A stretch of 22,210 nucleotides of DNA, taken from positions 1 to 22,210 of the IMG/VR virus record IMGVR_UViG_3300017917_002286. One strand, given 5' to 3'. Positions 5,932 to 21,091 of the stretch are shown piece after piece. The stretch's first letter is position 1; every line of letters begins with the position of its first letter. Position numbers and translations under genes: made by a program. Origin of the DNA: a virus. The notes under the pieces are model-generated. The model ran no database searches and was not told the origin of the DNA. It saw nothing but the letters and a program-made list of their open reading frames with translations.

Positions 5932-6570
5932 TTAGCCTAATTCTTTTACAGCTTCTTGCTCTGACTCGTCAGTAGCTTCTTCTTCTGTATTAGTAGTAAT
6001 CTTAGTTAAAAGCGCTAAAACCTCCTCTGATGTTGGACGTGGAAACTTCTCATCAATATTCTGAGCTTTGTCTGCCAATTCCCTTTCTTCAGGAGTTAAT
6101 GAACGTGGCTTGCAACGCAGAACTTGTAGTGTATACTCTACGTTGAAAGGCAGCGGACCAGTCTTGGTACGCTTAAATACTACATCCCAACCACTGTCAT
6201 AGTCAGTAGGATCGCCCAAATCTTCTGCAGCTGTAAGAATTTGTTCAAACAGCTTCTTTTTGAGATTTAATGCCTTTACCTTGCCATCCTTAGGATCAAT
6301 ACAGTTAACGCTGTAGCTCCAGCTGCACTTTGCATCTGGGAAAAAGTCCTGAACATGGTCTTTTTCTAGATTATCAAATTTTTCTTTTTCACGACTAAAG
6401 GCCAGGCACTCTACAGGAATATCCTTGTTATTAGTACCCTTAAGCCAGTAAATATATCGTGGAAGGACTCCGCCAATCAAACGAACTGTGTTTTCGCCAT
6501 CTTTGTATTCGTATGCTTCAACTGTATTTTTGATTGCTTTGCCTTTGGTTTGTTTAAAACTAAGTGCCAT
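5932..6570 (-). CDS. Single-stranded DNA-binding protein, gp32-like
   Basis: Expected to coat ssDNA at the fork and recruit replication proteins through its acidic tail. The 212-residue protein has a basic start (KQTKGKAIK), a central region with RLIGGVLPRYIYW and IPVECLAFSREKEKF resembling gp32-type proteins of T4-like cyanophages as I remember them, and an acidic Glu/Asp-rich tail (residues about 193-211) typical of SSBs that contact partners. It is shorter than T4 gp32 (about 300 aa), and I do not see a convincing zinc-binding Cys/His set. The start overlaps the preceding gene by 11 bases, with GAGG about 12 bases upstream. It is followed at once by a terminator, suggesting high expression. 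The assignment rests on recall and context. Confidence 0.75.
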   Translation of the reverse strand: MALSFKQTKGKAIKNTVEAYEYKDGENTVRLIGGVLPRYIYWLKGTNNKDIPVECLAFSREKEKFDNLEKDHVQDFFPDAKCSWSYSVNCIDPKDGKVKALNLKKKLFEQILTAAEDLGDPTDYDSGWDVVFKRTKTGPLPFNVEYTLQVLRCKPRSLTPEERELADKAQNIDEKFPRPTSEEVLALLTKITTNTEEEATDESEQEAVKELG

Positions 6571-6958
6571 TTTTTATTTTTTCCTCGTATTTAAAATAAA
6601 TTTTGTTTTCGGTTATCGTTAATAGCGGATTATGTTGTATTGTGTTAACATTTATATCCAAAAAATAAGATAAATCTAAGTGTGTATATCCGTATAATTT
6701 ATATAGTAAATAATCTCTACGACCGGCCAGTCTTATATACTGTGCCTTATATACTATGTCTGTAGTTTTATCTTCAAATATTGCTTTTGCATTAAGTAAG
6801 AAACTAGTTCCAACAAGGTTACTAAGTGGTTTCACTAAATCTCTAGCGTTTTTTGGTGCTGTTTTACCTATATAATGCAATCGCAAAGTCTCGACTAATT
6901 TTTTAGGATCGTTCCGTGTTTTAGTCTCAAGAGTTTGTAGGTTAAAGAAAAGTGCCAT
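6560..6958 (-). CDS. Unknown protein upstream of SSB
   Basis: Not recognised. 132 residues, basic (many Lys/Arg), no membrane segment. A central stretch, KAQYIRLAGRRDYLLYKLYG (residues about 70-90), looks helical and basic. The C-terminal part, with LDLSYFLDINVNTI, could be a small helix-turn-helix. It is the first gene after the promoter at 6978-7006 and overlaps SSB by 11 bases, the place occupied in T4 by the helicase loader and late-transcription genes 59 and 33. I see no sequence evidence for either. There is no Shine-Dalgarno in the leader of about 13 bases. Confidence 0.8.
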   Translation of the reverse strand: MALFFNLQTLETKTRNDPKKLVETLRLHYIGKTAPKNARDLVKPLSNLVGTSFLLNAKAIFEDKTTDIVYKAQYIRLAGRRDYLLYKLYGYTHLDLSYFLDINVNTIQHNPLLTITENKIYFKYEEKIKNGT

Positions 6959-13395: not shown

Positions 13396-13695
13396 TTACC
13401 CTACTTTCGATTCATTGTCAATAATAACTTGGTCTATGATTTCAGTAACTTTATATAGTATTTGGTCTCTGAGCTTTTTAATATCTTGCTGATATGTACC
13501 ACCCTGCTCAAAGAGTATGCTAAGCTGTTCATGTGTAATAAGCTGCTGTAATCCAAAATATATGTGATCATACGCCATGGTACTTTCAGGCATTATCTCT
13601 ACATTAACAGCTTTACCGTAGTTGTGAACAGCTTGTTTGACAACTTCTTCTACGGTAAAAGATTCGTTGTCGTGGTATGTAATTGTAACTTTCAT
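13396..13695 (-). CDS. Unknown small protein upstream of helicase
   Basis: Not recognised. 99 residues, acidic, mixed alpha/beta. It begins with a beta-strand-like segment (MKVTITYHD) and ends in helices (residues 60-95). I start it at the ATG at 13695, which has GGAG 7 bases upstream; an earlier in-frame TTG at 13710 lies in the ribosome site itself. It ends 2 bases before the helicase start, so it is co-translated with it. A helicase loader or modulator is conceivable from position alone. A terminator sits immediately upstream with no promoter between. Confidence 0.75.
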   Translation of the reverse strand: MKVTITYHDNESFTVEEVVKQAVHNYGKAVNVEIMPESTMAYDHIYFGLQQLITHEQLSILFEQGGTYQQDIKKLRDQILYKVTEIIDQVIIDNESKVG

Positions 13696-13712
13696 ACTTC
13701 GACTCCGCAAAG

Positions 13713-13770: not shown

Positions 13771-14523
13771 TTAGGCGGCAGCCTTTGCTTCTGCCTTAGC
13801 CTTCTTAGCGGCCCCATCGTAATCGGCAACCTTGATGCCACGACGAGTTAGCAGAGTGCGAAGACCACGCTCAGTCTTGTCAACAGCAGCTGCGATCTCT
13901 GCCACGGTCATGCCGTGAATCTTATCGCCCAAGGCGGTAACAGGATCAATTTGCTCCTTGGCATGACTAACACGCTGTGCAGGAATCTTAGCGATTTGAC
14001 CCTTACGAGTCAGGCTCAGAGCCTTACCGCGGACGCTGGCAACAGTCTTGTTAAGAGCAGTAGCAATATCTTCGATAAAGCTACCAGCTTCAGCCATCTG
14101 AATGAACTTGGCTTCTTCTGCATCGGTATAAGTGCGAGCCACTTCAACCTTTTCAGCAGGCTTAACACTGCCAGTCAGTTCGAGGGCAAGCAACTTACCT
14201 TGAATTTGCTTGGCAGTAAACTTACCACCGGCAAATTGTTCGGCAATCTGCTTGTATGTGAGATTGCCGCTATTGCTGATTACAAACTCAGCAAGGTCAG
14301 CACCTTCGTCATCGGTGAAGGCACTAGTCTTTTCCTTAGCCATGCTAGCAACTTCAACTTCAAGTTGACGCAGCTTGCTGGCAACGCTACGGGCAGTAAA
14401 CTCTGCACCAAGTGCTTCTGCAGCACGTTCAACAGTTTCAGCGCTAACAGGACGCTGAGAACCAATAACACCCATCAATGTGTCAACAGCGGAATCGGAC
14501 CACTTTTTAGCTTTTTCAGTCAT
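13771..14523 (-). CDS. Tandem helix-turn-helix repeat DNA-binding protein with Lys/Ala tail
   Basis: Not a family I can name. The 250 residues contain about four repeats of a Myb/SANT- or HTH-like unit: 7-59, 67-120, 129-180 and 196-237. Each shows an aromatic/acidic start (KKWSDS, SAFTDDE, RTYTDAE), a middle IA or AA helix, and an ending of the type SVASKLRQL, QIQGKLLAL or SVRGKALSL; the fourth is weaker. The tail AAKKAKAEAKAAA is histone-H1-like. A multi-site DNA-binding or nucleoid-organising protein, or a transcription regulator, is the natural reading. Base composition is visibly more GC-rich than its neighbours, and a strong terminator follows; both suit an abundant product. It overlaps the ligase half gene by 8 bases. 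The gene at 17577-17951 carries one similar unit. Confidence 0.85.
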   Translation of the reverse strand: MTEKAKKWSDSAVDTLMGVIGSQRPVSAETVERAAEALGAEFTARSVASKLRQLEVEVASMAKEKTSAFTDDEGADLAEFVISNSGNLTYKQIAEQFAGGKFTAKQIQGKLLALELTGSVKPAEKVEVARTYTDAEEAKFIQMAEAGSFIEDIATALNKTVASVRGKALSLTRKGQIAKIPAQRVSHAKEQIDPVTALGDKIHGMTVAEIAAAVDKTERGLRTLLTRRGIKVADYDGAAKKAKAEAKAAA

Positions 14524-20033: not shown

Positions 20034-20043
<10 letters not shown>

Positions 20044-20183
20044 GCTAATTCTTTGATTATTTTTTCCTGTTCTTGTGGGGTCATGTATGCCCAACGCTGA
20101 ATTTCTTCTAGGGTTCGCTTGCACCCAATACAGTACTGCAGCTTAGGGTCAAGTTTGCATATTTTTATACAAGGTGTTTGCAT
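20034..20183 (-). CDS. DUF1289-like Cys-rich microprotein (49 aa)
   Basis: A 49-residue frame, short but distinctive: PCIKICKLDPKLQYCIGCKRTLEEIQ and MTPQEQEKIIKEL. Four cysteines (C5, C9, C18, C21), the IGCKRT-x2-EI-x2-W core and the C-terminal MT-x2-E helix match DUF1289 (YdhL-like) proteins, proposed to bind a metal or Fe-S centre; function unknown. It begins 20 bases downstream of the predicted start of the 20210 promoter; the leader is the right arm of a terminator hairpin, with no clear Shine-Dalgarno. Its last 10 bases are the beginning of the tRNA gene, so tRNA processing would cut its stop region. Confidence 0.82.
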
Positions 20184-20186
20184 AAT

Positions 20187-20229
20187 AAAAAATCCCCAAA
20201 CCAGTATATATTATACCAAGTTTGGGGAT
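20187..20229 (-). terminator. Terminator hairpin whose loop carries a promoter -10 box
   Basis: Outer 10-base-pair stem (20192-20201 with 20220-20229), an inner 5-base-pair stem (20204-20208 with 20212-20216), then five U residues on the minus strand (20191-20187). It follows the Val tRNA by about 20 bases and would end the upstream tRNA/rubredoxin transcript. Confidence 0.85.
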
Positions 20230-20238
20230 ACAAATCAA
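20210..20238 (-). promoter_or_regulatory. Sigma70-like promoter nested inside the terminator
   Basis: On the minus strand, -35 TTGATT (20238-20233), 17-base spacer, -10 TATAAT (20215-20210). The spacer is the 5' arm of the hairpin, and the expected start (near 20203) lies beyond it, so new transcripts carry only the 3' arm. Confidence 0.8.
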
Positions 20239-20248
20239 GTTAATAATT

Positions 20249-20323
20249 TGGTACCCGGTAGTGGGGTCGAACCACTGACCCACGCCTTGTAAGGGCGTTG
20301 CTCTACCACTGAGCTAACCGGGT
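20249..20323 (-). tRNA. tRNA-Val (TAC)
   Basis: Complete cloverleaf: acceptor ACCCGGT/ACCGGGT, anticodon stem ACGCC/GGCGT with loop CTTACAA, standard T-loop TTCGACC, A73 and encoded CCA. It begins one base after the stop of rubredoxin. Confidence 0.94.
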
Positions 20324-20324
20324 G

Positions 20325-20471
20325 TTATTCGAATTCGTAGATTTCGTAATCTTCTTTACCTACACCGCACTCAGGACACTCGAAGTTATCTGGCAAAGTT
20401 TCCCATCTGCCTTCCAGTTCCTCGTCATGTATATGTCCGCACACTACGCATACATATTCACAGTTACTCAT
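20325..20471 (-). CDS. Rubredoxin (48 aa, short form)
   Basis: Mononuclear iron electron-transfer protein. Both Fe(SCys)4 knuckles are present: YVCVVCG (C8, C11) and ECPECG (C32, C35), followed by VGKEDYEIYEFE as in stand-alone rubredoxins (CPxCGVGKxxFE). The loop between the knuckles is several residues shorter than in typical 52-54 residue rubredoxins, yet keeps W-x-LPDNFECPECG. The ATG overlaps the TGA of rubrerythrin (ATGA), so the two are translated together, and it most likely passes electrons to that diiron protein. A tRNA-Val starts one base after its stop. Confidence 0.93.
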   Translation of the reverse strand: MSNCEYVCVVCGHIHDEELEGRWETLPDNFECPECGVGKEDYEIYEFE

Positions 20472-20920
20472 AGTGCCTCCAACTTCTTCTTGTAAGCTTC
20501 AGCGTGACGCTTTTCTACTTTAGCCAGGGCAGCAAATCGCGCCTCGGCCTTATCTAGCAGTTCTTGGAACTCCATAGCGTGCATCTTAGACTCTTTAGCC
20601 TGCAGTTTGGCCTCTAGTGCTGCGTTCTCGTCACCTTCTGTAATGGCTTCTTCCATAAACTTAGGATACATTTCTGTATATTCATAAGTCTCGCCCTGAA
20701 TTGCTTTCTCCAAGCACTCTCGTGTACTAGGGTGTCCGACGAGCAGCTCTAGGTGACCCCAGGCGTGCTTAATTTCCTGATCGGCTGTATGCTCAAAATG
20801 GTCGGCAATATCATCATAGCCTTCTTCACGGGCAATCTTGGCAAAGTAGCGATACTTGATATGCGCCATACTTTCGCCAGCTAGAGCACTCTCTAGATTG
20901 TGTAGTGTTTTACTTAACAT
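20468..20920 (-). CDS. Rubrerythrin, diiron domain only
   Basis: Ferritin-like four-helix diiron protein that in the family reduces hydrogen peroxide. Ligand motifs in 150 residues: E16 (GES in helix 1), ExxH at 49-52 (EIKH), ETYEYTEMYPKF at 77-88 in helix 3, and ExxH at 136-139 (EKRH). The usual C-terminal rubredoxin domain of rubrerythrin is missing and is instead a separate gene overlapping the stop by 4 bases. AAGGA lies about 7 bases before the ATG. It sits between a Gly tRNA and a Val tRNA, in the middle of a tRNA cluster. Rubrerythrins are commonest in anaerobes and microaerophiles, but also occur in aerobic bacteria. Confidence 0.9.
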   Translation of the reverse strand: MLSKTLHNLESALAGESMAHIKYRYFAKIAREEGYDDIADHFEHTADQEIKHAWGHLELLVGHPSTRECLEKAIQGETYEYTEMYPKFMEEAITEGDENAALEAKLQAKESKMHAMEFQELLDKAEARFAALAKVEKRHAEAYKKKLEAL

Positions 20921-20939: not shown

Positions 20940-21013
20940 TGGTGCGGGGTAAGAGAATCGAACTCTTAACTGAAGGTTGGAAGCCTACCGTTTTGCCATT
21001 AAACTAACCACGC
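20940..21013 (-). tRNA. tRNA-Gly (TCC)
   Basis: D stem GTTT/AAAC, anticodon loop CTTCCAA, T stem AAGAG/CTCTT with TTCGATT, A73 and encoded CCA. The acceptor stem pairs except position 4-69, which is T opposite C. Confidence 0.9.
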
Positions 21014-21014
21014 T

Positions 21015-21091
21015 TGGTGCGGGCGAGGGGATTCGAACCCCTGTCCACTGGTTGGCAACCAGCGATAATAACCAGGCTATACGACGCACGC
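21015..21091 (-). tRNA. tRNA-Gly (GCC)
   Basis: Anticodon stem GCTGG/CCAGT with loop TTGCCAA, T stem AGGGG/CCCCT, A73 and encoded CCA. The acceptor stem again has T4 opposite C69; otherwise complete. It starts one base before the CCA-side spacer of the TCC gene, giving a tight tandem. Confidence 0.9.

Follow-up and report, generated by a model that had tools for sequence, protein, structure and literature searches.

A tRNA-Val (UAC) gene and a DUF1289 gene lie on the minus strand of a virus record (IMG/VR IMGVR_UViG_3300017917_002286; the window is the whole stretch of 22,210 nt that was analysed), and the bases between them carry both a promoter and a hairpin followed by a T tract. We asked whether the two signals really occupy the same bases, and what such an arrangement would mean for RNA arriving from the tRNA side and for RNA starting at the site itself.

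From its sequence the window belongs to a T5-like phage. Its DNA polymerase is about 50% identical to Demerecviridae polymerases, its NAD-dependent ligase is split into an adenylation/OB part and a BRCT part encoded by separate genes, and D12/D13-like recombination genes together with a set of tRNAs are arranged in a way that resembles T5. Rubredoxin and rubrerythrin genes are adjacent within the tRNA cluster (20325-20920, minus strand). When a 7-kb stretch was compared at the DNA level with the named phages of a phage collection, only tRNA genes matched, no close relative was found and the element itself had no meaningful match. In an Rfam scan, tRNAs alone scored above the gathering threshold.

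A promoter inside a predicted terminator hairpin

In the preliminary description, the spacer and the -10 box of a TTGATT-17-TATAAT promoter were placed within the 5' arm and loop of a hairpin, and the sequence and the fold confirmed that the promoter does lie inside it (Table 1). Read on the minus strand from 20238 to 20187, the site is TTGATT TGTATCCCCAAACTTGG TATAAT ATATACTGG TTTGGGGATTTTTT; the TTGATT-N17-TATAAT promoter extends over 20238-20210 with a spacer of 17 nt, and a TG stands one base 5' of the -10 box. The U tract (T6) was as described, whereas the stem, given as 10 bp, proved to be an outer stem of 11 bp including one G-U pair (20229-20219 with 20202-20192); within it lies an inner stem of 6 bp (20217-20212 with 20208-20203) and a loop at 20211-20209. 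The start codon of the DUF1289 gene (ATG at 20183) follows immediately 3' of the T tract.

Table 1. Features at the nested site and its two neighbouring genes.
Feature	Position	Strand	Basis
-35 box TTGATT	20233-20238	-	sequence; TTG invariant in 22 aligned copies
-10 box TATAAT, within inner stem and loop of the hairpin	20210-20215	-	sequence and alignment
5' arm of predicted terminator hairpin (promoter spacer)	20219-20229	-	fold and covariation
3' arm of predicted terminator hairpin, contains GGGGA	20192-20202	-	fold and covariation
Inner stem GGTATA/TATACT, loop ATA	20203-20217	-	fold
T6 tract (predicted terminator tail)	20187-20192	-	sequence; T-rich tail in all aligned members
tRNA-Val (UAC), final gene in the transcription unit upstream	20249-20323	-	ARAGORN; Rfam tRNA
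DUF1289 protein gene, first in the downstream unit	20034-20183	-	ORF; Pfam PF06945, E 9e-19

The hairpin at 20229-20192 had a minimum free energy of -19.6 kcal/mol (z -4.7), a value equalled by 1 of 200 shuffles. RNA from 20203 onward, in which the 5' arm is absent, gave a different fold (-13.2, z -1.35), and the proposed distinction between arriving RNA with both arms and new RNA without the 5' arm held in these predictions. When the site was shuffled, a stem between spacer and downstream bases arose by chance at a length of 8 bp in 0.65% and of 10 bp in 0.055% of cases. The automated terminator scan accepted only loops of at most 8, and the nested hairpin was missed for this reason.

Pairing is retained while the sequence changes

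A search of viral contigs with the exact site sequence gave no match; in relatives the arms have changed. A scan of 84 loci showed that divergent relatives carry the same nest. Among all loci inspected, more than 12 distinct sequences had the element after tRNA-Val (UAC), each with a stable hairpin and a T tract. We aligned 15 members and then 22, that is, the window and 21 copies from related uncultured phages, located after tRNA-Val or elsewhere. In the 22-member alignment 88.8% of the cells were paired, compared with 32-52% when the partner was slid (about 51% at a slide of one column). Double changes occupied 41 cells, against 17 in shuffles, and none of 500 shuffles reached 41; related sequences, even unstructured ones, can exceed this shuffle control, and more weight is therefore given to the slide control and to the particular double changes. 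The latter included C-G to U-A, G-C to A-U, and U-A to A-U or C-G. TTG, TATAAT and the T-rich tail were constant in the 22 members while the stem letters varied, just as had been anticipated for a stem that compensates around a fixed -10 box. The covariation shows that promoter and predicted terminator have been kept within the same 45 bases over long evolutionary time.

Of 30 related phage records searched with a covariance model, 19 contained the element, with one to three matches per record; mostly there was one copy, some had two strong ones, and unrelated nested promoters were present as well. Loss of a single arm without consequence had been named as a finding that would speak against the design. 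At L088 and L102, where the element is absent between tRNA-Val and the DUF1289 gene that comes next, it is the whole unit that is gone, not one arm.

Proposed action of the site

We favour, with a probability of roughly 0.78, the reading that the site is a composite terminator-promoter, a cassette of a T5-like phage similar to the promoter early stem-loops (PeSLs) of T4-like phages, which ends the tRNA/rubredoxin transcript and starts the DUF1289 transcript. A polymerase coming from the rubrerythrin/rubredoxin/tRNA-Val side would make the 5' arm by copying the promoter spacer and the 3' arm by copying the bases that follow the -10 box, and the hairpin with its U6, predicted from stem-loop and T tract to be a transcription terminator, would stop this RNA about 60 nt past tRNA-Val. 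Termination may be partial, because the hairpin is only moderately stable. Polymerase carrying the host's main sigma factor would begin at about 20205-20202, within the hairpin, and the resulting RNA, having only the 3' arm, would form no terminator and extend through DUF1289 and tRNA-Met into the gene beyond. Read-through RNA would sequester in its stem the GGGGA that serves to initiate DUF1289 translation, and translation would be poor. Promoter-bound polymerase might also hinder passing polymerase, which is conjecture. We infer the start site from the -10 box, and termination, sigma factor, timing and the effect on translation likewise from the sequence. If it acts in this way, the element suggests how phages insulate exchanged genes.

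Other explanations of the site

The DUF1289 gene has a single Shine-Dalgarno candidate, the GGGGA in the 3' arm 10 nt before the ATG (anti-SD duplex, -5.5 kcal/mol). This suggests that the hairpin may also, or instead, mask the ribosome-binding site of read-through RNA, a role compatible with termination. In a stronger form, the hairpin would mainly hide this site in long RNAs, as in T4 genes e, soc and I-TevI, the nested promoter would supply the translatable RNA and termination would be secondary. Besides the T4 precedent (PMC3014915), a spacing of 10-12 nt is constant before several different genes, in about half of the copies the following gene has no ribosome-binding-site candidate other than the one in the 3' arm, which masking explains equally well, and the same genomes have nested promoters free of a T tract, with a ribosome-binding site in the 3' arm and covarying stems. 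We nevertheless regard masking as the main role as rather unlikely: the T-rich tail is retained in 22 of 22 members, and hairpin and T tract both persist in the copies at L155, L076b, L189 and L192, where a separate ribosome-binding site lies downstream. This speaks for termination as the function shared by the copies.

The same element precedes at least seven unrelated genes across the relatives: DUF1289, metallophosphoesterase-like, rubrerythrin, small membrane protein and tail-like genes and at least two other families (names other than DUF1289 and rubrerythrin were assigned by eye from the N-termini). Rubrerythrin stands directly 3' of the element at L138 and L146. Such a distribution is that of a cassette placed where genes are exchanged, and it would also suit a recombination joint, a repeat kept at gene borders for module exchange whose regulatory effect is incidental; PeSLs are proposed as mediators of shuffling in T4-like phages (PMC4503421). 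Such a joint needs sequence identity, whereas here the sequence diverges with pairing kept, and most genomes have one or two copies, leaving little to recombine within a genome. We consider this explanation improbable.

Could the promoter be a chance match within an ordinary terminator of the tRNA operon? In AT-rich phage DNA, matches to the consensus were about as frequent as in shuffles, so that consensus matching alone stays at chance level, and it is conservation that raises the promoter call above it. All aligned members have conserved the -35 box, the -10 box and the A/T-rich flank 5' of the promoter. The promoter consensus of the clade is AAAAATTTnnACTTGA-N17-TATAATA, and the window promoter, which appears to be of the sigma-70 type, ranks at the 90th percentile among the clade's promoters; the flank upstream of the -35 box, which had not been used in detection, scored 8.6, where the best 5% of random DNA gave 1.5. 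On conservation and the weight matrix, a chance promoter was rejected as very improbable. Equally improbable is a promoter without terminator, whose inverted repeat is accidental or serves a regulator as an operator at the DNA level: a symmetric repeat around the -10 box could bind a dimeric protein, but its letters change freely in pairs, as expected of paired RNA but not of an operator with a fixed sequence, and each copy is followed by a T tract.

In T5, three sub-threshold model matches (L176 25577-25636, L175 20995-21064 and L175 35527-35590) coincided with the annotated promoters 75568-75642, 20998-21071 and 35524-35598, respectively. Another promoter in the window, 16353-16318 (minus strand) before a ligA-like ligase gene, has TTGATT and TATAATATATACT in common with the nested site. 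It was rejected as a second copy of the element, being a promoter core without hairpin; its ATG lies 7 nt after the -10 box, and the RNA may be nearly leaderless.

Comparison with known systems

The preliminary description knew of no named example in phage tRNA clusters, and here it was wrong, as PeSLs are a named element of T4-like phages and RB49 has -10 boxes in hairpin loops. The PeSL papers are Arbiol 2010 and Comeau 2014, and the first PeSL paper reportedly found that the stem-loops terminate effectively in RB49/phi1. As cited in PMC4503421, PeSLs are 'composite conserved promoter-terminator motifs', and they resemble the present element in combining a sigma-70-type promoter and a stem-loop or terminator in one small unit at the borders of variable genes, with the downstream genes exchanged. 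Our own scan of RB49 (100 kb) found TTGACA-N16-TATAAT with the -10 box in a hairpin loop, a 13-bp stem and a T-rich tail, as well as several further nested hairpins of 8-10 bp without a tail; the excess of nesting over permutation was modest. No clear nested terminator was seen in the parts of KVP40 scanned, and covariance model R1 had no match in the parts of RB49 or KVP40 searched. The present element differs in belonging to a T5-like phage with a T5-like DNA polymerase, and in having one conserved copy linked to tRNA-Val and few others, as against many near-identical copies per genome. Judged by sequence, it appears to work like a PeSL, and common descent with the PeSLs of T4-like phages is not supported. 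It would extend PeSL-like cassettes to T5-like phages.

In T4, gene e, soc, gene 49 and I-TevI have late promoters within hairpins that block translation (PMC3014915). The likeness to gene e lies in a promoter in the 5' part of the hairpin, a ribosome-binding site paired in the 3' arm, and a long RNA that is silenced while the locally started RNA escapes without the 5' arm. The T4 case has a late promoter (TATAAATA) and a block of translation, whereas here a sigma-70-type promoter is joined to a T6 tract and a predicted terminator. In five related phages (L216, L230, L235, L243 and L246), upstream of an ORF starting ATGTATTTTTGCGT, a promoter-containing hairpin locks the GGAG of the ribosome-binding site, there is no T tract and both arms covary; by analogy, this hairpin would be a mask of the T4 gene e kind in T5-like phages.

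T5 belongs to a related group with the same promoter type, and in its annotation (AY543070) a terminator directly precedes a promoter; the named promoter P13b stands right behind tRNA-Val (UAC) (AY543070 31990-32155, minus strand, L175). The T5 arrangement differs in being tandem, with the -10 box about 40-80 nt behind the hairpin start and outside the hairpin. No convincing case of a nested terminator was found in AY543070, and P13b is without one. The comparison indicates that the promoter position after tRNA-Val is kept in T5 and that the overlap with the terminator is probably specific to the present clade. In the archaeal virus HGTV-1, motifs of a TATA box and an inverted repeat have been likened to PeSLs (PMC3950731). 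By description, they share a promoter-like box and an inverted repeat before many ORFs, and they differ in the archaeal promoter type.

How general nesting is in the clade

In the window and nine related phage records, the offset from the -10 box to the hairpin centre had a nested peak at -10 to 0, where one bin held 13 cases and the background was about 2 per bin, and a separate peak at +40 to +70, corresponding to a tandem terminator followed by a promoter. Permuting spacers against downstream sequences for 259 promoters with a nearby gene start gave 1.2 expected nested stems of at least 10 bp, compared with 15 observed; after exclusion of the tRNA-Val-type element family there were 9 against 0.95. 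Held-out contigs (738 kb), from which this family and spacers close to the first set had been excluded, contained 7 such stems against 0.4 expected, a number reached in 0 of 300 permutations. Over whole contigs, nests of at least 10 bp were about 10-fold above permutation. In the held-out loci around the DNA polymerase gene there was no excess once the tRNA-Val-type family was set aside (1 against 0.3). Enrichment at all promoters of the clade was therefore rejected, and the nesting design is regional, a matter of whole contigs and variable regions, not general.

Tentatively, and with somewhat less than even confidence, we suggest that the T5-like phages of this clade use promoters nested in hairpins generally to reset transcription in variable regions. 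Read-through RNA would be silenced by termination at a T tract or by masking of a ribosome-binding site, only locally started RNA would be both full-length and translatable, and several unrelated hairpin families would have converged on this geometry. If this is true, every imported gene would be self-contained.

A second family of nested promoters was seen in G002, G005, G006, G008, G009, G012 and G016, where the leader that follows ends in ACCAACAAGGAAGTACATG or a similar sequence. Its stems change (for example ATCCGGTGG/CCACCGGAT), a T-rich tail is often present, and the downstream gene has its own ribosome-binding site. At 7006-6952 (minus strand) of the window, the -10 box of a TTGTAA-17-TATAAT promoter is able to pair with ATTATGGCAC around the start codon of ORF 6560-6958. 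This nest also occurs in the L004 genome (G001 34395) and may reflect coding constraint; it was not counted as a terminator, as the -10 box pairs with the start-codon region inside coding sequence. Elsewhere in the window, a strong terminator-like hairpin of 14 bp with a T tail lies at 13751-13716 (minus strand), between ORF 13771-14523 and ORF 13396-13710.
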